Assembly: GCA_014193395.1 (NCBI GenBank)
Contig: BJHT01000039.1
Location: 1-35,312, forward strand
Reading direction: 5' to 3'
Source of the DNA: Verrucomicrobiota bacterium
Lineage (GTDB): Bacteria; Verrucomicrobiota; Verrucomicrobiia; Limisphaerales; BJHT01
DNA length: 35,312 nt
Shown here: positions 20 to 21,406 of the stretch, piece by piece
How positions within the stretch are numbered: the stretch's first letter is position 1
Layout: every line of letters starts with the position of its first letter
Notes under the pieces: model-generated
Database searches by the model: none
What the model saw: only the letters and a program-made list of their open reading frames with translations
What the model was told of the DNA's origin: nothing
Position numbers and translations under genes: made by a program

Positions 20-2068
20 GTGACTGCCCTTTCGAGCGAACCAAAAACCGCCACGCCGGCGGAGCCGTCGCCGGTTCCCCGCGCCACCGCCCTCGTCTCG
101 GTCCGCCGCTGGCTGGACACCGGCTACGCAACGCTCGACCCGGCCGGCCACATCCTGCAGGTAAATCGCGCGCTTGCCGACTGGCTCGAACTTGCCGCCG
201 AGACGCTGCCCGGCAAATCCTTCTGGCCGCTGCTCACCGCCCGCTTCCCCACGTTCACCGACGCCTTGCGTGAGTTCTCCGAGGCCCCGACGCCCTTCGC
301 GCATCTTTCCCTCGCTTCCGGCAACGCAGTCGGTGCGACTTCGCCGGCGGGCGCGTCTGGCGCGTCCAGCGAACCCGCCCGTGGCTGGTTCCAGCTTGAG
401 CGCACGCTGCATCCCGGCGGCAGCGTCGTCCGCCTCAACTCCGTTCTCCCGCCCGCGCGCGACCTCGCCGATGCGCCGTGGGAAGAACACCTCCGCAACG
501 AATCCTCGCGCCGCGATCTGTTTGTGCGCCTGCTGCGCGCCGAGTCGCAGTTGGAAAATCTGACCCAGCGCTGGCCCGGAGTGATTTTCAACCAGAGCGC
601 CGACTTCACGTTTCAATTTGTCAGCCCGCAAATTGCCGACCTCACCGGCATTCCCGCCGCGGAATGGCGGCGGCGTTTGCAGCCCTTCTGGCAGGTCATT
701 CACGAGGCCGACGCGCGCGATCTGCAGCAGCAATGCCTCCGCGCCGCGCAGACCGGCGAACGCGTCACCAGCACCTTCCGCGTGCGTCATGTCCACACCG
801 CGCAGGTCGCCTACGTGCTCGAACATCGCCAGGCCGTCCGCAGCGCCAGCGGGCTGTTGCTTGGCTACGAGGGTGTGTGGCTTGATATCACACGCCAGAC
901 CATCGCCGAGCAGCGGCTCGCCTCGGCGGCGTGGAAGGAAACCCTCGGCCTCATCACGATGGGTCTCGCCCACGATTTCAGCAACAGCATGGCCGGCATT
1001 CACGGGCTGACAGATTCCTTCCTCGCGGGTCTCGCCCCCGATCATCCCTTCCACGAGGGCCTCACGCTCATTCTTCGCAACACCCGCCACGCCACCCAAC
1101 TCGTCCGCCGCATCATCAGCCTGCACCACGGCAAAACCGGCGAATGGAATTATCACGACCTGAACGAAATCGCGCGCGACAACGTGGACCTCGTCCGCAT
1201 CACCCTCCCGCGCCGCATTGAAATCCGCACCGAACTGGCCGCCGTCCAACTGCCGGTTTACGCCGACGCCGTCGAGTTCCGCCAGGTCATCATCAACCTC
1301 GCCCTCAACGCCGCGCACGCCATGCCCGAGGGCGGCACCCTCACCTTCGTCACGTCGCAGCACGACACCCTGCCGCCGCTGGCCCATATTCAGGGCCTGC
1401 GCCCGCGGCTCCCCGCCGTCTGCCTCAGCGTGACGGACACCGGCTGCGGCATCAAAACCGCGCATCTCGAGGCCATCTTCAAACCCTTCTTCACCACCAG
1501 CGCGCTCAACCAAGGCTCGGGCCTCGGCCTCTACAACGCCCGCCTCTTCGTCGAGAAACACCGCGGCATGATCTCCGTCGAGTCGGTCGAAGGCGTCGGC
1601 ACCTGCTTCCGCGTCTGGCTCCCGCTGCCCAATTTCAACGAAGGGGAAACCGCCGCCAACGGGGCCGCTGCCAGCGCTCCAGCGGCGCCCATCGCCCGTC
1701 GGCAGCTCCTGCTCGCCGGCCCCGCGGGCAGGCTCCGCTCGGACACCGCCGAACGCCTGCGCGTCGCCGGCTATTATGTCGCCAAGACCGGTTCGCCGAC
1801 GGAGGCGCTCGAATTCCTCGGAGATCCGGTGCAGCGCTTCGATGGCCTGGTGGTCGTCACCGACCGGCATCATCCCGAGTTTTGCGATCTGCTCTCCGAA
1901 GTGCGCCAGCGCGGTCTGCCCACGAAAACCATCTTGCAAGTTCTCGGCTGTCGTTCCGATGACCTCGAACCCCGCTGGCTCGCCGCCACCGATCTGTTCA
2001 TTCCGCCCGAGCTGTCCGGGCCGGACATCCTCGCCCGCCTCGATCAACTCCTCAGTCCGCCCGCCTAG
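20..2068 (+). CDS. PAS-domain sensor histidine kinase with C-terminal pseudo-receiver
   Basis: Probably a cytoplasmic sensor kinase; no membrane segment is visible. In order: a PAS-like region (about residues 28-100), a second PAS (about 184-295), the phosphoacceptor helix with LAHDFSN (H318), and a HATPase_c domain with N-box NLALNAAHAM (426-435), G1 box DTGCG (473-477) and G2 box GSGLGL (499-504). Residues 560-680 look like a receiver fold, but the N-terminal acidic pair is replaced by LLLAGP, so phosphotransfer there is unlikely. The GTG at 20 is the first start available; the frame stays open to the window edge and no ribosome site is visible, so the true start may lie upstream. The stop is 10 bases before the next gene, a response regulator, suggesting one operon. 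The signal sensed is unknown. Confidence 0.9.
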   Translation: MTALSSEPKTATPAEPSPVPRATALVSVRRWLDTGYATLDPAGHILQVNRALADWLELAAETLPGKSFWPLLTARFPTFTDALREFSEAPTPFAHLSLASGNAVGATSPAGASGASSEPARGWFQLERTLHPGGSVVRLNSVLPPARDLADAPWEEHLRNESSRRDLFVRLLRAESQLENLTQRWPGVIFNQSADFTFQFVSPQIADLTGIPAAEWRRRLQPFWQVIHEADARDLQQQCLRAAQTGERVTSTFRVRHVHTAQVAYVLEHRQAVRSASGLLLGYEGVWLDITRQTIAEQRLASAAWKETLGLITMGLAHDFSNSMAGIHGLTDSFLAGLAPDHPFHEGLTLILRNTRHATQLVRRIISLHHGKTGEWNYHDLNEIARDNVDLVRITLPRRIEIRTELAAVQLPVYADAVEFRQVIINLALNAAHAMPEGGTLTFVTSQHDTLPPLAHIQGLRPRLPAVCLSVTDTGCGIKTAHLEAIFKPFFTTSALNQGSGLGLYNARLFVEKHRGMISVESVEGVGTCFRVWLPLPNFNEGETAANGAAASAPAAPIARRQLLLAGPAGRLRSDTAERLRVAGYYVAKTGSPTEALEFLGDPVQRFDGLVVVTDRHHPEFCDLLSEVRQRGLPTKTILQVLGCRSDDLEPRWLAATDLFIPPELSGPDILARLDQLLSPPA

Positions 2069-2078
2069 CCCCGCTCTT

Positions 2079-3356
2079 ATGCCCGAGCCAGCCGTCAGCC
2101 CCGCCGCCAACTACCGCATCCTCGTCGTCGATGACGAAGAGATCGTCCTCGTCGCCCTGCGCGACACCCTCCGCCGCGAAGGCTACCAAGTCGTCACCGC
2201 CACCAACGCCATGGACGGCCTCGCGATTTTGCAGCGCGAAAAATTCGCCGCCATCCTCACCGACCAGATGATGCCGATGCTCACCGGCCTCGAGTTCCTC
2301 GCGCAGGTGAAGCAGATCCAGCCCGACGCCACGCGCATCCTCATCACCGCCGTCCTGAATCTCACGACCGTCATCGACGCCATCAACAAGGGCGAAATCT
2401 ACCGCTTCATCGTCAAGCCCTGGCTGCGCGAGGAACTCCTCGCCACGCTCCGCAACGCCGTCCAGCGCTACGATCTCATCTGTCGCAACGCCGCGCTGCA
2501 GGCCACGACGCTCGCGATGAACGAGCAACTCCGGCAGCTCAACCAGTCGCTCGCCCAGCAGATGGCCCGCGTCGCTGAACAGAACACCCAGCTCGCCACC
2601 TTGAACCAAGCCCTCGACGCCAACCTCCAGCGCTCCGTCGAGCTGTGCCTGCGCACGATGCAGACCTTCTACCCCACGCTCGGCAACCAGGCCCGCCGCG
2701 TGCAGCAGCTCTGCCTCGCCATGGCCGACGAACTCCGCCTCCCGTCCAACGACCGCAAAGTTCTCGAAATCAGCGCGTGGCTCCACGACATCGGCCTCGT
2801 CGGCATCCCGCGGTCGCTGATTAAAAAGTGGGAGCAAAACCCCGGCACCCTCAACGACAACGAACGCATCGTCGTCGAGCAACACCCCGTGCTCGGCGAG
2901 GAACTCGCCGCCTTCGTCCACCACCTCAAGCCCGTCGGCCCCATCATCCGCGGCCACCACGAACGCTTCGACGGCCAGGGCTACCCGGACCGGCTCGCCG
3001 CCGACAACATCCCGTGGCTGGCCCGCCTCCTCGCCGTCGCCGTCGGTTACGCCGCCAGCCCGCTGCACAGCGAGGAAGCCCTCGAGGCCGTCAAGCACGC
3101 CAGCGGTTCCCTCTACGATCCCGACGCCGTCCGCGCATTCCTCCGCGTCCTCCCGCGCACCGTCCTGCCGCACCGCGAACGCGAGGTCATGCTCACCGAA
3201 TTGCGCCCCGGCATGGTTCTGGCCAAAGGGATTTATACCGCCAGCGGCATGCTCCTCCTGCCCGACGGCGAGCGATTAAGTGAACTCAACATCGATAAAT
3301 TGCGAAACCACAACCGGATTAATCCGATAACACAGTCACTGATCGTGACTGCTTGA
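2079..3356 (+). CDS. Response regulator with degenerate HD-GYP domain
   Basis: A 425-residue RpfG-like regulator. The receiver (about 12-130) is intact: D18/D19, phosphoacceptor D62, T90 and K113. A coiled segment (about 135-190) leads to an HD-GYP domain (about 190-360) that keeps H236-D237, H269, HHE (293-295) and GYP (301-303). By comparison with the family, the first metal His is Q204, the Lys after HDxG is L240, and the late Asp of the usual AVAD motif is V322. HD-GYP enzymes normally hydrolyse cyclic di-GMP; with these losses this copy may bind without cleaving or have altered activity (inference). About 65 extra residues follow the domain. The ATG at 2079 is chosen because it places the receiver at the N-terminus and lies 10 bases after the kinase stop; the open frame reaches further upstream only inside the kinase. 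Confidence 0.9.
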   Translation: MPEPAVSPAANYRILVVDDEEIVLVALRDTLRREGYQVVTATNAMDGLAILQREKFAAILTDQMMPMLTGLEFLAQVKQIQPDATRILITAVLNLTTVIDAINKGEIYRFIVKPWLREELLATLRNAVQRYDLICRNAALQATTLAMNEQLRQLNQSLAQQMARVAEQNTQLATLNQALDANLQRSVELCLRTMQTFYPTLGNQARRVQQLCLAMADELRLPSNDRKVLEISAWLHDIGLVGIPRSLIKKWEQNPGTLNDNERIVVEQHPVLGEELAAFVHHLKPVGPIIRGHHERFDGQGYPDRLAADNIPWLARLLAVAVGYAASPLHSEEALEAVKHASGSLYDPDAVRAFLRVLPRTVLPHREREVMLTELRPGMVLAKGIYTASGMLLLPDGERLSELNIDKLRNHNRINPITQSLIVTA

Positions 3357-3411: not shown

Positions 3412-3463
3412 GCTGCGGATGACAGTCGGGAACCCGCTTCGGAGTCTGGGTTGGATCGGTATC

Positions 3464-5755
3464 ATGGTTCCGCGAGAACGAACAATTACACCCGTCGGCC
3501 CGGCCCCGGGATCGTCCGGCCGCGAGGAATGGTGGCGCTGCCTTTTCGAGCAATCGGAGGACGCCCAGCTCATCTGCTCCGCCCGCGGCGAGGTCTTTGA
3601 GGCCAACCGCAAGGCCAGCCAGCTCCTCGGCTTCCTTGCCGATCCTGCCCGGCGGCGCGCCACGGTCTTCGAGTTCTTCACGCCCAACGTCGGCCACAAA
3701 ATCGAGGACTGGCTTCGCCGTCACCACCGCCGCAGCGAGGTCATCCCCGCCGTCGGCCTCGTCGGCCCCGGTTTCCTCAGCTACCTCGTCGATGTTCACC
3801 TCACCCCGCTGGACGCCCACACCTGGCTCCTGGCCATCCGCGACGCCAGCCGCCGCTGGCGCATGGAATCCCACGTTCAGCGGCTGATGACCGCCGTCAA
3901 TTCCACGCCTGACGTGGTGTTTCTGACCGACGCCGATTTCAAAATCATTTTCGCCAACGCCGCCCTCCACACCGTTACCGGCTACTCCCTCGAGGACGTC
4001 CTCGGCCGCCCCGCGATTTTTCTCCGCGCCGAATCCGACCGCCCCAAAGTTCACGACTACCTCGCTGCGGTGAAGAACGGCTCCGACTGGATCGGCGAAC
4101 TCCTCAACGTCCGCAGTGACGGCACCACCTATCCGGTCGAAGCCACCATCTCGCCGATCTTCGATGCCAACGGCGTACTCATCGGCCACGCCGCCTTCGA
4201 GCGCGACATTTCCTCCAAGCAGCGCCTCCAAGACGAACTCGAACGCGAGCGCAAATACGCCCTGAGCATCCTCAATTCCCTGGATGCCGCCGTGTACACG
4301 ATGGACCGCCAGTTCCGCCTCAGCCATGTCAACGACGGCTGGCGCAAAATGCCCGGCCAGCACGGCTGGCTCACCATTACCACCCCGCCCGCCACCGGCA
4401 TGCCGCTGCTGGATTTCGTCGCCGAACCCGATCACCGCTCCGAGTTGAACTACCTGTTTGAAAGCGTCCTCGCCAAAGGCGAGCCGCATCACATGGAGGT
4501 CACCGACTCGGAAAAACGGTGTTGGAACATCAAGATTTCCCCGTGGCAGCAAGCCAGCGAAAAACTCGGCCTCATCTACATCGTCACCGAGCACACCAAG
4601 ATTCACGAGTTGCAGCGCCAGCTCTTCCAAGCCCAGAAAATGGAAACCGTCGGTGCGCTCGCCGCCGGCGTCGCGCACGATTTCAACAACCTCCTCCAGG
4701 CCATTCGCGGCAACGTCACGCTCCTCCAACTCCAAGGCAATTTCGCCCCGCCTCTCCAGGCCCGCCTCGCGCACATCGACGAGGCCGCCGCGCGCGCCGC
4801 CGACATCACCCAGCAGCTCCTCTCCTTCAGCCGCCCCACCGAAGACCAGGACAGCGTCGTCGATCTCAACCGCATCATCGAGGAGGTCAGTCACCTGGCG
4901 CACCGCTCGCTGCGCAACAACGTCGCCATCGAACTCCGGCCCTACGCCGGCCAGCTCATGGCCCGCCTCGACGCCAGCCGCACCCAGCAGGTCCTCCTCA
5001 ACCTCTGCGTCAACGCCATCGACGCCATGCCTGACGGCGGCACCATCGTGGTCAAAAACGACCTCGTGGAACTCACCGCCGAACAGGCCGCCAAGGCCCA
5101 CCAGGTCGCCGGCGCTGTCTTCGCCTGTTGCAGCGTCACCGACACCGGCACCGGCATTCCGCCGGAAGTCCTCAGCCGCATGTTCGATCCCTTTTTCACC
5201 ACCAAGGAGAACGGCAAGGGCACCGGCCTCGGCCTCGCCATCGTCCACAACATCACCGCGCACTGCGGCGGCTTCCTCGAGATCGACACCGCGCTGGGCC
5301 GTGGCACCACCTTCCGCGTCTTCCTCCCCGCCACCCAGCCCGGCACCGCCCGCAGCCTCCCCGCCGTTTCGCCCGACCTCAGCAAAGGCACCGGCCGCGT
5401 CCTCGTGGTGGATGACCTCGATCTCGTCCTCGAATTCGCCCGCAGTTTCCTGCTCGCGGCCGGCTACGAAGTCCTCACCGCCACCAGCGCCGAGGAAGCC
5501 CTCGTCCTCCTCGAGCGCGAAACCGTCCCCATCGACCTCCTGTTCACCGATTTCAACATGAAGGGCAAAACCGGCCTCCAGCTCATCGACGAAGTCGCCG
5601 ACCGCTGGCCGAAAACCAAGTTCATCCTCGCCTCCGGCTACCTCGAACAAAACGAGCGGCGCCAGATCGAGCTCTCCTACGGCGCCACCGTCCTCGGCAA
5701 GCCCTACAATGTCCGCGAGGCCACCAACCTCATCGCCGAAATCCTCGGCCGCTGA
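3464..5755 (+). CDS. PAS hybrid histidine kinase with intact receiver
   Basis: A 763-residue hybrid kinase, probably soluble. From the ATG at 3464 it has three PAS-like regions (about 25-130, 140-255 and 265-380; the middle one is clearest), a HisKA helix with AAGVAHDFNN (H405), and a HATPase_c domain with N-box NLCVNAIDAM, G1 DTGTG and G2 GKGTGLGL. A C-terminal receiver follows (about 645-760) with the acidic pair in VLVVDD, phosphoacceptor D696 and K746. Phosphate would pass from H405 to D696 or to another carrier; no output domain is attached. An in-frame ATG at 3419 adds 15 residues but sits 8 bases from a dispersed repeat and lacks a ribosome site, so 3464 is preferred. It lies 107 bases after the HD-GYP regulator on the same strand and may belong to the same pathway. 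Confidence 0.9.
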   Translation: MVPRERTITPVGPAPGSSGREEWWRCLFEQSEDAQLICSARGEVFEANRKASQLLGFLADPARRRATVFEFFTPNVGHKIEDWLRRHHRRSEVIPAVGLVGPGFLSYLVDVHLTPLDAHTWLLAIRDASRRWRMESHVQRLMTAVNSTPDVVFLTDADFKIIFANAALHTVTGYSLEDVLGRPAIFLRAESDRPKVHDYLAAVKNGSDWIGELLNVRSDGTTYPVEATISPIFDANGVLIGHAAFERDISSKQRLQDELERERKYALSILNSLDAAVYTMDRQFRLSHVNDGWRKMPGQHGWLTITTPPATGMPLLDFVAEPDHRSELNYLFESVLAKGEPHHMEVTDSEKRCWNIKISPWQQASEKLGLIYIVTEHTKIHELQRQLFQAQKMETVGALAAGVAHDFNNLLQAIRGNVTLLQLQGNFAPPLQARLAHIDEAAARAADITQQLLSFSRPTEDQDSVVDLNRIIEEVSHLAHRSLRNNVAIELRPYAGQLMARLDASRTQQVLLNLCVNAIDAMPDGGTIVVKNDLVELTAEQAAKAHQVAGAVFACCSVTDTGTGIPPEVLSRMFDPFFTTKENGKGTGLGLAIVHNITAHCGGFLEIDTALGRGTTFRVFLPATQPGTARSLPAVSPDLSKGTGRVLVVDDLDLVLEFARSFLLAAGYEVLTATSAEEALVLLERETVPIDLLFTDFNMKGKTGLQLIDEVADRWPKTKFILASGYLEQNERRQIELSYGATVLGKPYNVREATNLIAEILGR

Positions 5756-12850: not shown

Positions 12851-14338
12851 TCACTTCACCTGGAGTTCCTGCTTGATGCCGAACTTCTCGACGCGCTTGC
12901 GCAGGGTCGCGCGGGTGATGCCCAACATGCGGGCGGCGTGGACTTGGTTGCCGCGATGCTCGCGCAGGGCATTGATGATCAGTTCGCGTTCGACGGCGGG
13001 GATGAGCTTGCAAACCGGATGCGCGCGCGCCCACAGGAAGAGCGCGCGCACCAAGGGTTGAATATCGTCGGTTGGATTCGCGGACGGCGCTCCGCCGCCG
13101 ACTGGCGTGGCGGCGGTGGGGCCGGCCGCGGTGGGCGCAGGCGCGGCCTCAGTCTTCGGTGCGGCGACGGCGCGGGTGATTTCGGGCGGCAGATCGGCAG
13201 GCAGGATGGCCTCACCTTTTGCCACGACCAGCGCGCGTTGGATGACGTTCTCGAGTTCGCGGACGTTGCCGGGCCACGGGTAGTGCTCCAATTGGCGCAG
13301 GGTCTCGGGCAGGATGACTTTCGGCGGCGTGCCGTGTTTGCGCGCGTATTTCTGGAGGAAATAATTCACCAGCAGCGGAATGTCGCCGCGCCGTTCGCGC
13401 AACGGCGGCATCGCCAGGCGCACGACATTCAGGCGGTAGAAAAGATCCTCGCGAAATTTCTTTTCTGCGACGGCTTGTTCGAGCGGCTTGTTGGTGGCGG
13501 CGATGATGCGGACATCGACAGACACGGGCTGGTTGCCGCCGACCCGCTCGAAGGTGCCCGATTGCAGCACGCGCAGAATCTTCGTCTGCGTCGCCAGGCT
13601 CATGTCGCCGATCTCGTCGAGAAACAGCGTGCCGTGGTTGCACTGCTCGAACTTGCCGATGCGCTGCACGGTCGCGCCGGTGAACGCGCCCTTCTCGTGC
13701 CCGAACAATTCGCTCTCGAGCAGGTTCTCGGGAATGGCCGCGCAGTTGATCGCCAGGAAGGGCTGGGTGCTGCGTTTGCTGTTGTGATACACGGCCCGCG
13801 CCACGAGTTCCTTGCCCGTGCCGCTTTCGCCCGTGATCAGCGCCGTGGCGTCCGACGCCGCGAGCTGGCCGACGAGCTTGAACACGTTCTGCATCGCCTC
13901 GGCGCGGCCCACGATGCCCTGCTCGTAATCCTCGCTCTCGAGCAACGGCTGGAAGCTGACGGCCTGCCGCATGTCGCGCGCGGCCTTGAGCGCGCTGGCG
14001 ACGATCTCCTTGAGCTTGGCGATGTCGAAGGGCTTCAGGAGGTAGTCATACGCTCCGAGCTTCATCGCCTCGATGGCGGTCTGCGTGGTGCCGTAGGCGG
14101 TCATCATGATGACCAGCAGCTTCGAGTCGGTCTGGCGCAACCGCCGCAGGGTCTCGAGACCGCTGATGCCGCCCATGCGCACGTCCATGATGACGAGGGT
14201 GGGCTTGAGCTTGGGGATGAGCTTCAGCCCTTCCTCGCCGCTGTTGGCGGGCACAATCTCGATTTCCGCCGAATCAAAAATCCGGCGGAACGAGTACTGC
14301 ACGTCCGTTTCATCATCGATCAAAAGTATCTTTTCCAT
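12851..14338 (-). CDS. Sigma-54-dependent response regulator, NtrC type
   Basis: A 495-residue activator of RpoN promoters. The receiver (1-120) has the acidic pair D8-D9, phosphoacceptor D52, T80 and K102. The AAA+ domain (about 140-375) has Walker A GESGTGKE (170-177), the sigma-54 contact loop GAFTGA (217-222), Walker B LFLDEIGD and the WPGNVREL motif. An Ala/Pro linker (about 390-420) leads to a Fis-type helix-turn-helix (about 448-487, AARMLGITRATLRKRV). The ATG at 14338 puts the receiver at the N-terminus; the open frame continues far upstream but over non-coding sequence. No partner kinase is adjacent. It is divergent from the large membrane protein at 14741, a possible target (inference). 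Confidence 0.94.
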   Translation of the reverse strand: MEKILLIDDETDVQYSFRRIFDSAEIEIVPANSGEEGLKLIPKLKPTLVIMDVRMGGISGLETLRRLRQTDSKLLVIMMTAYGTTQTAIEAMKLGAYDYLLKPFDIAKLKEIVASALKAARDMRQAVSFQPLLESEDYEQGIVGRAEAMQNVFKLVGQLAASDATALITGESGTGKELVARAVYHNSKRSTQPFLAINCAAIPENLLESELFGHEKGAFTGATVQRIGKFEQCNHGTLFLDEIGDMSLATQTKILRVLQSGTFERVGGNQPVSVDVRIIAATNKPLEQAVAEKKFREDLFYRLNVVRLAMPPLRERRGDIPLLVNYFLQKYARKHGTPPKVILPETLRQLEHYPWPGNVRELENVIQRALVVAKGEAILPADLPPEITRAVAAPKTEAAPAPTAAGPTAATPVGGGAPSANPTDDIQPLVRALFLWARAHPVCKLIPAVERELIINALREHRGNQVHAARMLGITRATLRKRVEKFGIKQELQVK

Positions 14339-14740
14339 GGATGGCGTTGGGCTGTTCCGAATCCAGCGGCGGACCTTACGCGTGTCGGAACGGGAATGGC
14401 ATGACTTTTTTGGCGGCGACGTGGCGGGGCGCTGCGTGACATGGTCGCAGAAGTGGAAGCCGGCAGTGATGCTGCTTCCGCGCGGTGGGTGGGCAGATTT
14501 CGCCGGGCTGAGAGGCAGGGAGCAGGAGGGATTTTTGGCAGGGGAATTTGGGGCAGTGGAATGGGAAATTTTTCTGGGAGATTGATCTGCGTTCCGTGAT
14601 TCCTTCGGTCTCAATTCCCCGTCCACATTCCCGAACCCGTGTTTCCATGCACGGTTCGGGACCCTGCCGTCATGGGACGGGAAAAAAGGTGGCTGCCCGG
14701 GCGGGGGGGCGGTACGGTTTCGGCGAATCCAACAAAGCTT
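14339..14740. other. Divergent intergenic region with hairpin and repeat
   Basis: This gap holds the start regions of two divergent genes. It contains a paired GGCAG..AAT repeat (14537-14566) within a G-rich stretch, and a stable hairpin at 14629-14661 whose arms TCCCGAACCCGTG and CACGGTTCGGGA pair fully except for one bulged C. I looked for the TGGCAC-N5-TTGC pattern of sigma-54 promoters and found no convincing match. Confidence 0.55.
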
Positions 14741-17700
14741 ATGGCAAACACGAATTCGGATGTGGGCGGGCTGCTGGTGCAGAGCGGGGCGCGGATCAAG
14801 CTCTCGGCGCTGCTGGTGGGCGCGGCGTGGTGGGTGGTGACGTGTCTGGGGGTGTGGTTCTGCCTGCTGGTGCTCGATAATTTGCTGAGCCTGCCGGCGG
14901 GGTTGCGGCTGCCGCTGGCGATCGCGGGCGCGGCGTTGTCGGGCGTGGGGTTTTTCAAGCGAGTGTTCCGCATTGCCGCGACGCGCATGGCACCGGAGCG
15001 GACGGCGGTGCTGCTGGAGCACAAGTACAAGATCGAGGACAACGTGTTGATCAACACGTTTCAGTTCAACGGGCGGGAACTGAATGCGGCGGAGAAACCG
15101 TTTGTCGCGCAGACGGCGGCGCGGTGCGGGAGTTTGCTAAATCGCATCAAGCTGGAGGATTTGTGGGATCGCGAGGATTTGATCCGCTGGGGCGTGGGCG
15201 CGGGGATCGTGCTGGTGTTGTGGATCGGGTATGTCGCGATTTTTCCGAAGCACGCGTTCAACGCGGTCGGCCGCTATGTCGTGCCGTTGGCGGACCGCCC
15301 GCCGGTGGCGTCGGTGGATTTGAGCGTGCGGCCGGGGACGGACGTGACGGTGGTGGAGGGGGATAATCTGGAGGTCGTGGTGAACGTGACATCGCAGAAG
15401 CGCGAGATGGGCATCCCGCTGCTGGTGTGGAAGGAGCGCGTGCCGAGCGTCGAGGCGGTGAAGTCGGCCGGGGAGAACATCCCGTTGTTCGCCGCGCCGG
15501 GCGGCGGCAAGGGCAAATACACGTACACGTTTCCGGATGTGCGGCGGTCGTTTGCGTTCCGCGTGTTCGCGGATGACGCGTATTCGCGCAGCGTGCTGGT
15601 GCAAGTGAAGCCGCTGCCGCGCATCAAGGAATCGTTCTTCCGCCTGACGCTGCCGGATTACATCGGGCTGGGCGCGATCACGAATCCGGGGCCGCCGGCG
15701 TCGATCTCGGGGCTGGCGGGATCGAAGCTGGAGACGGTGCTGGTGTTGGACACGGCGATTGAGGGCGGCTATTTGCGCGAGGCGTATCGGACCAATCAAT
15801 TCAAGCCGAACGGCCCGCGCTGGTCGGTAAGCACGACCATCACGAACTCGGGCGAATACGAGGTGGTGATGACGGGCGCGGGCCTGGCGAAATCGGTGAG
15901 CCTGGCGCGCGGGGCGATCCGCATGGATGCCGACCAGGCGCCCGAGGTGGACTTCGTGACGGACGACCGCAACCGCGTGGTGACGATGATGAGCAAGCTG
16001 AGGCTCGACGTGCAGGCGCGCGACGACTACGGGCTGGCGAACGTGACGATCTCGCTGCGCGCGGCGGATCAGCAGACGGATTTCAAGGTGCTCAAGAAAT
16101 GGACCTATCTCGGGCCACCCGGAAACAAGGGGCCGGTGAAGGAATCGTTCACGCTGGAGATTGATCCGAAGACGTTTCAGTCGGACATCAACTACGTGAT
16201 CGAGGCGCTGGCGTGGGATTTTCGCCCGAACGCCGGGCCGGCGAAATCGCGGCCGATTCAGTTGCGGGTGAAGTCGCTGACGGATTTCAAGGTGGCGGAG
16301 ACGGACCCGCTGGGTGGCGCGATTGCGAGCCTGCGGCAGACGATTGCCGCGCAGAAAAAAGCGACCGACCTGACGGCGAACGTGAAGACGTATCTCGAGG
16401 AGGTGTTGCAGAAAAAGACCGTCGTGGCGCGGCGGACGTCGATGGCGGGCTTGCAGGGCGATGCGCAGAAGTCGGGGCACGCGACGATCGGCGAGTTCAA
16501 GAAAAGCGCGGAGGGCACGAACTATCTCACGCGCCTGACGCCGCTGGTGACGGGCGAGATGAAGCTGGTGCTCGAGGACATTCCAAAGTTCGACGAGAAG
16601 GCGACGAACGCCATTCCCGCGCGGCTGACGGCGATCGAGAAACGGCAGGCGTACATCCTCGACGAGCTCACGCAGATTCTCGGGAAGATTGCGTCGGCGA
16701 AGGATTCACAGAGCAAGACGAACGAGCTGGCGAAGGACAAGGATCTGCCGCCGGATATTTCGAAGGAGGACGCGGCCAAGGGCCTGCGCGATGACATGAA
16801 AAAGTACATCGCCGAGCAGGAGCGGCTGTTGAAGAAGTCCAAGACGCTGATGGACCAGGGGCCGGAGGATTTGAGCAAGGACGAGAAGGACGCGATCCTC
16901 GGCGAGCTGGCGCGCGAGGAGAGCAAGCTGGCGAAATTCCTCGAGGACAAGATCAACGATTTCAGCAAGCTGCCGCAGCAGGATTTTGCGGATGGCGCGG
17001 TGGTGAAGGAGGCGAACGAGGTTTTCCAGGAGGTGAAAAAGGCCGAGGGCGCGCTGTTCGACAAGAAGATCGAGCTGGCGGTGCCGGCCGAGCAGGGCGG
17101 TCTCGAGAACGCGAAGAAGCTGGTGCAGAATCTCGAGAAGTGGCTGCCCAACACGCCGGACACGACGAAGTGGAAAATGGAGGAGGCCAATGCGCCGGCG
17201 GATATTGCGATGGCGGAGTTGCCGTCGGAGTTGGAGGACATTGTTGGCGACCTGATCGATAAGGAGGAGGAGATGACCGAGGACGTCGAGGATGTGACGA
17301 GTCCGTGGATGGACTCGATGGACAAGGGCGCGGGCTGGGACGCGGCGGATGGGAACATTTCGAGCATGAGCGCGAAGGGCGTGACGGGAAATCAACTGCC
17401 GAACAAACAGGAGATCGGCGGCCGCTCGGGCGAGGGGCGCGAGGGGCGCAGCAGCGGGCAGATGGTCGAGGAAACGGCCGAGGGCAAGGGCGGACGCGAG
17501 ACGCCGACGCGGGTGAGTCCGAGTCCGTTTGAGCCGGGGCAGGTGAAGGATTCCAACAAGGACTCGAAGGGCGGCGCGACGGGCGGCGGCAAGCAGTCGG
17601 GTTTCACGGGCGAGGGTTTGCGCGGCACGCCGCCGCCGCCGACGGATTCGAGCAAGCTGCCGCGGCTGGCGGAGGCGCAGGCGAAACTGCGGCAGGAGGC

Positions 17701-19345: not shown

Positions 19346-21406
19346 TCAGGCGGCGGGCGGCGACAGAGGCGGAGGCGGCGCGGGATTCAGCCCGGCGATC
19401 TCCATGGCGAGCACACAGACGTCGTCGCTGAAGCCGCAGCCGAGGGTGAACCGCTGCACTTCCTGCAACACCGCATCAATCAGCTCGCCGCCGTGAAAGG
19501 CCATGACCTTGCGCGCAGCTTCCTGAAGTTCCTCGACGGTGTAGAGCGTGTGGTTCGGATCCTCCACTTCAAACAGGCCATCGGTGAACAGCAACACGGC
19601 GTCGTCGGTGGTCGCGGTCATCTCCATCGTGGGATAGCTGGAACGCGCGGAGAGACCGAGGGCGGCACGACCTTTGCCGTCGTGGTTGGCCATGAGGCTG
19701 ATCTGTCCGACCTGACGCCGCAGAAGAAAGGGCCGTGGATGGCCTGCGTTGGCGAAGCGGATCGTGCCGGTCCGGAGGTCGGCGACGAGATAGAAGGCGG
19801 TGGTGAGGATGGGCGAGCCGGAGTTCCGCAGCATGGTGCAGAGATCGCGGTTGAGCCGGGTCAGGAATTTTCCGGGGTCGGTGGCCAGGGGTTTCAATTG
19901 TTCCACCAGCCCGCTGATCATGGCGGTGACGAGCGCTGCGCGGACGCCGTGGCCCATGACATCGCAGAGAAAAATTCCGGCCTCGTCATCGGAGAGCGGG
20001 AGCACGGTGAAGTAGTCGCCGCCGACGGCTTCGTTGGGGAGGTAGCGGTGATGAAAGCGCACGCGGCTGGCGTTGACGGGCGCGGCGGCGGGAAAGCTGG
20101 GATAGATGTCCGGGAGGAGATTCTGCTGGAATTCGCAGGCCATGCGCAGGTCTTTTTGCAGCTCTTCATTTTGCGATTCGAGTTCACGGCGATGCCGGTC
20201 CAGTTCGGCGTTGGCGGCCTGGAGCTGGTCCTCGGCGCGTTTTTTGGCGGTGATGTCCCAGAAAATTCCCTGCAGGCCGGTGATGACCTGGGCGGCGTCG
20301 CGGAGCGGGGTTTTGACGACTTGAACGTAGATGGTTTCGCCGCCCGGGGGACGGTGGGATTCCACGGCCTCTATGGGTTCGCCGCCTTGCAGGACGCGGC
20401 GGTCGTCGCCCTGGTATTTGGCGGCCAGCTCGGCGGGGAAGAGGTCGGCGTCGGTGCGGCCGAGAATTTTTTCCAGCGGCAGGCCGACCGTCTGGCAGAA
20501 GCGCTGGTTGGCGAAGGTGAAGCGGCCCTCGAGGTCTTTGCGAAAAATATTCTGCGGCAGGTTTTCGACCAGCGAGTGATAGAGGTGCTCGGAATCGCGG
20601 AGGCGTTCGGCGACATCCTTGCTGGCGGTGATGTCTTCGACGGTACCCTCGTAATAGAGCAAATCGCCGCCGGCCCCGCGGGCGGCGCGGACATTCTCCG
20701 TGATCCAGATGATCTCGCCGTTCTTGCGGTAAATCTGCGACTGAAAATCGGTGACCGTGTCGTGCTCCTGCATGAGGCGGATGAATTCGGCACGGCGGCC
20801 CTCCTGCACATAGAGCTTGCGGGCGATGTCGGTGACGCTGGCGGCCAGCTCCTCGGGGGAGGCGTAGCCGTAGATGCGGGCGAGGGCGGCGTTGGCCAGC
20901 AGGAAGTGGCCTTCGGGTGAGGTCTGGAAAACGCCTTCGACGATGTGCTCGAAGATCCCGTGAAATTTCTGCTCCGCGGCGATCAGCTCGTTTTCGTGCC
21001 GGTGTCGTTCAATGGCGTAGATGATCGCGCGGCTGAGGAACGGCGGCGTGAGCTGGGTGGTGATGAGATAATCGGCGGCCCCGGCGTGCTTGACCTCGAG
21101 CGCGAGGGTCTCGTCATCCACCTTGCCGAGCACGAGGAGGGGGATGGTCGGGTTGAGGAATTGCAGCAGCGGGATGTTTTGGAGGCCGGCGCCATCGGGA
21201 ATCGCGAGGTCAACGAGGACAACGTCGGGGCGCAATTCCAACAGGCGGCGCGTGCCTTCGGAGAGGCTGGCGGCCTCGGACACGTCGAACGCGGCCGCCT
21301 TCGTCTGGCCCAGCATGGGCCGCAAGTAGCGAACGAAATCCGCATCGTGCTCGATGAGGAGAACCTGATAGATGGGCGGGTTCATGTTTTGCGCCGGAAC
21401 CATCAA
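19346..21406 (-). CDS. Receiver-PAS-PAS-SpoIIE/PP2C serine phosphatase
   Basis: A 686-residue RsbU/SpoIIE-type phosphatase that would dephosphorylate a serine on an anti-sigma antagonist (family role; no such partner in the window). The N-terminal receiver (about 12-135) has phosphoacceptor D66 in VVLVDLAIPDG but lacks the conserved Lys (YLITTQ) and has a partly altered acidic pocket. PAS domains follow at about 146-265 and 272-395, then a coiled linker with LESQNEELQKDL, then the phosphatase domain (about 445-670) with VGGDYF, CDVMGHG, TDGLFE and FSDDVCVLAM, the metal-binding aspartates of PP2C. A Pro-rich tail ends the protein. A second start at 21385 (MNPPIY) is equally possible; neither has a clear ribosome site. 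Confidence 0.88.
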   Translation of the reverse strand: MMVPAQNMNPPIYQVLLIEHDADFVRYLRPMLGQTKAAAFDVSEAASLSEGTRRLLELRPDVVLVDLAIPDGAGLQNIPLLQFLNPTIPLLVLGKVDDETLALEVKHAGAADYLITTQLTPPFLSRAIIYAIERHRHENELIAAEQKFHGIFEHIVEGVFQTSPEGHFLLANAALARIYGYASPEELAASVTDIARKLYVQEGRRAEFIRLMQEHDTVTDFQSQIYRKNGEIIWITENVRAARGAGGDLLYYEGTVEDITASKDVAERLRDSEHLYHSLVENLPQNIFRKDLEGRFTFANQRFCQTVGLPLEKILGRTDADLFPAELAAKYQGDDRRVLQGGEPIEAVESHRPPGGETIYVQVVKTPLRDAAQVITGLQGIFWDITAKKRAEDQLQAANAELDRHRRELESQNEELQKDLRMACEFQQNLLPDIYPSFPAAAPVNASRVRFHHRYLPNEAVGGDYFTVLPLSDDEAGIFLCDVMGHGVRAALVTAMISGLVEQLKPLATDPGKFLTRLNRDLCTMLRNSGSPILTTAFYLVADLRTGTIRFANAGHPRPFLLRRQVGQISLMANHDGKGRAALGLSARSSYPTMEMTATTDDAVLLFTDGLFEVEDPNHTLYTVEELQEAARKVMAFHGGELIDAVLQEVQRFTLGCGFSDDVCVLAMEIAGLNPAPPPPLSPPAA

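Follow-up and report, generated by a model that had tools for sequence, protein, structure and literature searches.

The gene at positions 2079 to 3356 of the window (the whole 35,312-nucleotide stretch of DNA that was analysed) comes from a bacterium of the Limisphaerales. Its putative function is that of a response regulator in a flagellum-associated family found across the Verrucomicrobiota, in which the HD-GYP output domain has turned into a pseudoenzyme; we give this reading a probability of roughly 60%. The protein is probably not a cyclic di-GMP hydrolase, and it is not obviously a cyclic di-GMP receptor either.

The open reading frame, on the forward strand, encodes 425 amino acids. 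The receiver is followed by a long helix, the HD-GYP domain and a tail of 60 residues. Its features are as follows.

2079 to 3356, forward strand: response regulator with a pseudo-HD-GYP output (open reading frame, Pfam, alignment and AlphaFold2 model)
2118 to 2450, forward strand: intact receiver domain, residues 14-124, with phospho-Asp D62 (Pfam Response_reg; key residues in 14/14 rows)
2427 to 2669, forward strand: long linker helix from the receiver to the HD-GYP domain, residues 117-197 (AlphaFold2 model)
2670 to 3125, forward strand: pseudo-HD-GYP domain, residues 198-349 (Pfam HD_5, E 7.9e-29; the model matches)
2688 to 2690, forward strand: Q204, replacing the first metal His (H189 of PmGH; alignment)
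2784 to 2789, forward strand: H236-D237, the HD motif (alignment)
2796 to 2798, forward strand: L240, replacing the catalytic Lys of HDxGK (K225 of PmGH; alignment)
2883 to 2885, forward strand: H269, equivalent to H250 of PmGH (alignment)
2955 to 2963, forward strand: H293-H294-E295, the HHE motif (alignment)
2979 to 2987, forward strand: G301-Y302-P303, the GYP motif (alignment)
3042 to 3044, forward strand: V322, replacing the late Asp (D305 of PmGH; alignment); the guanine-reading loop that lies downstream in active enzymes is absent here
3174 to 3353, forward strand: C-terminal segment, residues 366-425, conserved among close orthologues (alignment; no Pfam match)

The receiver is that of a response regulator. 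It has the acidic pair D18/D19, the phospho-Asp D62, T90 and K113, and all of these are found in each of the 14 aligned rows (the window protein is entered twice), in agreement with the initial annotation, which called the receiver intact. Membership of the HD-GYP family is indicated by the significant HD_5 match, the HD-GYP fold in the model and the GYP motif. The AlphaFold2 model, with a mean pLDDT of 90.8, superposes on PmGH (4mcw; Z 22.3, rmsd 6.2 over 220), PA4781 (4r8z; Z 22.2, rmsd 2.4 over 191 residues) and DvhD (9rbz; Z 21.6, rmsd 3.7 over 193).

The window protein was aligned with the structural references PmGH, PA4781, V-cGAP3 and DvhD. In the alignment with PmGH (4mcw), Q204 occupies the position of the first metal His and V322 that of the late Asp; L240 falls on the Lys of HDxGK in the alignments with PmGH, PA4781 and V-cGAP3. 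Several solved structures agree on this register. The residues that the initial annotation had listed as kept (H236-D237, HHE and GYP) and as substituted (Q204, L240 and V322) are thereby confirmed together with their numbering. No alternative ligand placement was found against the crystallised HD-GYP proteins, and the idea that the metal ligands lie elsewhere receives no support from the alignments. The ligand set of active HD-GYP phosphodiesterases, H...HD...H...HH...D, is incomplete at Q204 and V322, and the HDxGK Lys that these enzymes require is replaced by L240.

PmGH is described as binding three irons (G, near GYP, M and H) through eight side chains, with D222 bridging the G and M irons and H189 called a ligand of the H site (PMC4159591). 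In the same report the H189A and K225A substitutions abolish hydrolysis, and D305A strongly lowers it with some activity kept. RpfG is reported to be active with Phe at the H189 position (PMC4159591), so that loss of the first His by itself proves nothing. A single-metal HD site is usually H...HD...D, the H and HH being added in HD-GYPs, and varied mono- and dinuclear chemistry is described for HD folds (PMC8177086). The window protein retains D, H, H and H (D237, H269, H293 and H294), but the first H and the last D are gone. By analogy with PmGH as described, we infer that these four residues correspond to the G site, which adjoins the GYP motif, and their retention makes a single-metal or a purely structural site possible.

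In PmGH guanine is read by R314 and K317, which are located in a loop after the late Asp (PMC4159591). The base-reading residues given for DvhD are R650 and Y652 (PMC13090378); a residue count along the aligned part of DvhD puts them in this loop as well. The window protein does not have the base-reading Arg/Lys of active HD-GYP phosphodiesterases, and its stretch after the late Asp is shorter, with 32 versus 40 residues between the same columns. We define below a class A of HD-GYP domains, to which the window protein belongs, and a class B. An RxYK-like loop motif is present in 5/5 intact domains, 0/71 class A domains and 0/36 class B domains. The motif occurs in only 17/98 rows of a named collection (L032-L111, of which 12 loci are themselves class A), and loss of the loop was rejected as a hallmark of class A for this reason. 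Its rarity in that collection suggests from sequence that the loop probably changed before the His and the Lys were lost. The missing loop, the resemblance of the retained residues to one metal site and the association with flagella are points beyond the initial annotation.

The host's order is represented by 146 genomes, mostly drafts, and a profile search found HD_5 in 69 of them. We read 116 of the 117 hits, leaving out L191, which has an internal stop. Domains were assigned to class C where the Lys is lost, to class A where the Lys, first His and late Asp are lost, and to class B where the metal ligands are lost; L225 and L229 (class A), L227 (class B) and L228 (fragment) were set by hand. 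The order contains 72 class A domains in 62 genomes, 38 class B domains in 28 genomes, five intact domains and one fragment. Class A domains keep the first His in 2/68 cases, the Lys in 0/70 and the late Asp in 0/71, so the three losses first noticed in one protein are found clade-wide in the Verrucomicrobiota. The remaining positions are well retained: H236 in 62/71, D237 in 67/71, H269 in 71/72, H293 in 70/71, H294 in 69/71, E295 in 71/71 and Y302 in 65/71. L240 is invariant among the 13 sequences closest to the window protein. Some single class A domains (L225, L229 and L187) are fragmentary or have lost further ligands. The window gene is under strong purifying selection, with a Ka/Ks of 0.071 against the gene of its congener; the values for the two neighbouring kinases, HK1 and HK2, are 0.235 and 0.148. 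Decay or chance is ruled out for the window gene by this ratio and by the clade-wide conservation.

Within the order, class B (L113-L141 and others, for example G001:C4:116639-117124) makes up another family of dead HD-GYP regulators, distinct from class A. Its HD motif is replaced by SQ, AP, FP and the like and its HHE by Q-x-K, with Q for the first His in 38/38 domains and K for the Glu in 37/37 that have a letter there; G-x-G-x-P is retained. At one locus (L195; G113:C168, 40488-41973) one gene of class B and one of class A are encoded on opposite strands, about 1.5 kb or less apart. In class C (L284, L291, L293, L294, L296, L298 and L300) the Lys is replaced by Leu or Met, and the first His and late Asp are kept; GGDEF domains are present in 4/5 class C genomes. 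The sample of the class outside the order gave 44 HD_5 hits: 13 intact, 10 class A, 7 class C, 8 class B, 5 unclassed, and L283, which was set apart because most of its ligands are lost. For this outside sample the classes, the total of 118 genomes and the test figures were set by eye.

A tree was built by a quick method from 96 rows, taken as random picks per class plus the window, with the ligand columns excluded. The rows comprise 35/85 class A, 12/45 class B, 22/41 intact, 7/7 class C, 12/52 late Asn and 8/9 mixed sequences. A branch with an SH-aLRT of 97 separates class A from the other sequences, with class C alongside it and class B apart (93). The arrangement of classes A and C suggests that the Lys may have been lost first, the tree being unrooted. 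The nearest relatives outside the phylum (L045-L088) are mostly from Betaproteobacteria; in these HDxGK and HHE are mostly kept and the late Asp is Asn (VANDYD), a change also reported for the inactive Bd1817. A deltaproteobacterial contig (L063:6497-10616) carries three successive HD-GYP reading frames.

Profile searches of the window's genome, a 95% complete draft, found no GGDEF, PilZ or EAL domain and a single HD_5 hit. Across the order GGDEF is present in 35 genomes, EAL in 25 and PilZ in 17. The genomes of the order with intact HD-GYP domains are all GGDEF-positive (5/35 versus 0/111, p 6e-4). Class A is found in 18/35 GGDEF-positive and 44/111 GGDEF-negative genomes of the order (p 0.24), and when one genome per family is taken p is 1.0. 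Thus no GGDEF domain was detected in 44/62 of the order's class A genomes; one class A genome assembled as a single contig (G097) is absent from the GGDEF, EAL and PilZ hits. Outside the order 27 of the 118 genomes have GGDEF, two of them weakly (G191 and G193). Intact domains occur there in 10 genomes, nine of which are GGDEF-positive (p 4.5e-6), and class A is commoner with GGDEF (6/27 versus 4/91 genomes, p 0.009). Class A is therefore independent of GGDEF within the order but not in the wider class sample, and a tie of class A to cyclic di-GMP was rejected for the order. A diadenylate cyclase domain was found in 14/14 genomes searched, the window's own among them, which neither supports nor excludes binding of cyclic di-AMP.

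In the order class A follows flagella. The flagellar protein FliS is present in 60/146 genomes of the order, and class A is found in 53/60 genomes with FliS versus 9/86 without (Fisher 1.6e-22). The exceptions are nine class A genomes with no FliS match and seven FliS genomes with no class A. The association holds among the GGDEF-negative genomes of the order (36/42 with FliS versus 8/69 without, p 2.5e-15) and with one genome per family (24/25 versus 2/35, p 2e-13). Class B also tracks FliS (25/28 genomes, p 6.8e-9). In the order FliS is found in 0/5 genomes with intact HD-GYP domains, and GGDEF is not associated with FliS (p 0.17).

Class A genes have FliS, FliD and CheA among their neighbours. 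In 21 genomes FliS is no more than 5 kb from a class A gene, and in 20 of these the two share a strand; no class B gene has FliS at this distance. Upstream of class A on the same strand there are 18 locus-gene pairs with FliS, 6 with FliD and 13 with a small protein that we call X; CheA is downstream on the same strand in 10/13 pairs. Two loci (L034 and L036) have fliD-fliS-X-HK1-RR-HK2-cheA consecutively on one strand, where RR is the class A gene. Another has fliD-fliS-X-RR (L043), and one from outside the order has fliS-X-HK1-RR-cheA (L278). At four further loci outside the order (L277, L279, L272 and L276) CheA is nearby on the opposite strand. None of these flagellar genes was found within the sequence around L292, L280, L282, L288, L297 and L283, or within the sequence at several named loci (L038-L042). 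The linkage of class A with flagellar genes points to a shared process, not to a mechanism.

Protein X occupies the interval between fliS and the kinase (L209:7299-7691 and L190:7050-7487, both on the reverse strand, and others). It has no Pfam match, and the sequences that were read end with W-x-x-[YF]-S; as a guess, it is possibly a flagellar chaperone.

The single FliS of the window's genome is carried by a different contig (G000:C113); the contig of the window begins at HK1. FliS is likewise on another contig in the congener, in which the frame before HK1 is membrane-protein-like by eye and is not FliS. The flagellar link in these two genomes thus rests on the orthologues, and the window's copy of the flagellar cassette appears to be a detached one. 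The class A gene of the window is flanked by two kinases.

20 to 2068, forward strand: HK1, a PAS-PAS-histidine kinase with a C-terminal pseudo-receiver at about 1697-2065 (Pfam HATPase_c and PAS; alignment)
3419 to 5755, forward strand: HK2, a PAS-PAS-HisKA-HATPase hybrid kinase with an intact receiver (Pfam)

Neighbourhoods were counted from the HD hit at informative loci: HK1 is upstream of the class A gene in 39/65, HK2 is downstream in 26/67, and both are present in 23. The kinase motifs of HK1 are kept in the alignment and its H-box is conserved. The pseudo-receiver that the initial annotation had ascribed to the adjacent kinase proves to be shared by the aligned HK1 orthologues: the phospho-Asp, the first acidic residue and the Thr are lost in 38/38, and the Lys is lost in at least 36/38. 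In the window's HK1 one Asp lies slightly off the aligned column by eye. Elsewhere the window encodes a sigma-54 activator with a receiver (12851-15022, reverse strand) and a SpoIIE-type phosphatase with receiver and PAS domains (19346-21406, reverse strand); several further long frames in the window have no Pfam match.

The best NCBIfam match of the window protein is the NosR family (NF053512) at 347.2 bits, which is below the curated cut-off of 400 and so falls short of membership. The likeness covers receiver and HD-GYP domain across the whole length (residues 14-418). NosR of Burkholderia pseudomallei is also described as degenerate by those who reported it, and a histidine kinase phosphorylates it (PMC12570481); its reported change is HG-GTP, which differs from the substitutions at Q204, L240 and V322. 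DvhD of Desulfovibrio vulgaris (PDB 9rbz and 9rc0; PMC13090378) is likewise a dead HD-GYP with the same fold that is used for signalling. It is described as having SQ for HD and MN for HH and as keeping the base-reading loop, whereas H236-D237 and H293-H294 are present in the window protein and the loop is not. The SQ change of DvhD is shared by part of class B. The active enzymes PmGH (4mcw) and PA4781 (4r8z) have the fold, HD, H, HHE and GYP in common with the window protein, which is without their first His, Lys, late Asp and Arg/Lys loop. PA2572 of Pseudomonas aeruginosa, with YN-GYP, also combines a receiver with an inactive HD-GYP variant and has phenotypes, and an interaction of its receiver with a chemotaxis-type sensor is reported (PMC3411652); in that account other residues are lost, and it concerns a single protein, not a clade. 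Bd1817 of Bdellovibrio is an inactive HD-GYP with the late Asp replaced, by Asn where the window protein has Val, but it is reported to bind two irons and to miss the Tyr of GYP (PMC8177086), which is intact here. As far as these descriptions tell, the class A pattern of losses is matched by none of NosR, DvhD and PA2572. We found no report of a single-metal HD-GYP of this kind, and no paper in the open-licence literature that links class A proteins with Verrucomicrobiota or flagella.

The initial annotation proposed that a phosphorylation-controlled cyclic di-GMP hydrolase may have turned into a binder or a different enzyme. The comparisons above favour the departure from hydrolysis, and the idea of a cyclic di-GMP binder is weakened. 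A dead pocket that binds cyclic di-GMP in the manner of DvhD, or cyclic di-AMP, and is gated by phosphorylation is in our view unlikely. There are precedents in DvhD, a metal-free inactive HD-GYP that is reported to bind cyclic di-GMP (PMC13090378), and in one subunit of an EDTA-treated PmGH crystal, in which only the G-site iron was left and cyclic di-GMP was bound uncut (PMC4159591). The window protein retains its GYP motif, and a diadenylate cyclase domain occurs in every genome searched for it. Binding of this type is made less likely by the absence of the loop that carries R314/K317 in PmGH and R650/Y652 in DvhD, the motif of which is found in no class A domain, and by the many class A genomes of the order in which GGDEF goes undetected. 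It is a little less likely again that the protein is still an enzyme, with one metal bound by the remaining Asp and His ligands and serving other phosphoester or redox or gas chemistry. D237, H269, H293, H294 and E295 are nearly invariant as other ligands drift, and HD folds support both mono- and dinuclear chemistry of several kinds (PMC8177086); yet the ligands that have gone belong to H...HD...D, the usual single-metal site in that account, the Lys has gone with them, and the conservation of the others may be structural.

Residual cyclic di-GMP phosphodiesterase activity is very improbable. RpfG tolerates loss of the first His, PmGH D305A is partly active (PMC4159591) and 18/62 class A genomes of the order do have GGDEF, but single substitutions at K225 or H189 suffice to abolish activity in PmGH, and here three sites and the loop are lost together. 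The intact HD-GYPs of the order are also confined to GGDEF genomes, and class A is not. The fragmentary or further depleted class A domains noted above might point to gene decay, or to a misalignment that hides ligands located elsewhere; for the window gene we regard this as the least credible reading, given its Ka/Ks, the invariance of L240 and the agreement of the solved structures on the register.

We therefore return to the reading of a pseudoenzyme that serves as a flagellum-associated response regulator. HK1, HK2 or both would phosphorylate D62, the signal would travel along the long helix into the HD-GYP fold, and this fold would contact proteins of the flagellar or chemotaxis machinery instead of destroying cyclic di-GMP. 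The four conserved residues, one Asp and three His, may bind a single metal or have a structural role. A broader proposal, which we regard as possible rather than probable, is that a cyclic di-GMP phosphodiesterase was converted in the Verrucomicrobiota into a phosphorylation-driven flagellar or chemotaxis switch with a single metal site by the GYP motif, direct protein signalling having replaced the messenger in cells with no recognisable GGDEF.

HD-GYP genes are commonly taken as a sign of cyclic di-GMP turnover. The class A clade follows flagella and not GGDEF in the order, so this interpretation would be wrong for many Verrucomicrobiota. The intact, class C, class A and class B domains form a natural series for the non-catalytic roles of the metal sites and the GYP motif, and class A offers a case, open to experiment, in which an enzyme of second-messenger turnover would have become a regulator that acts directly on motility.
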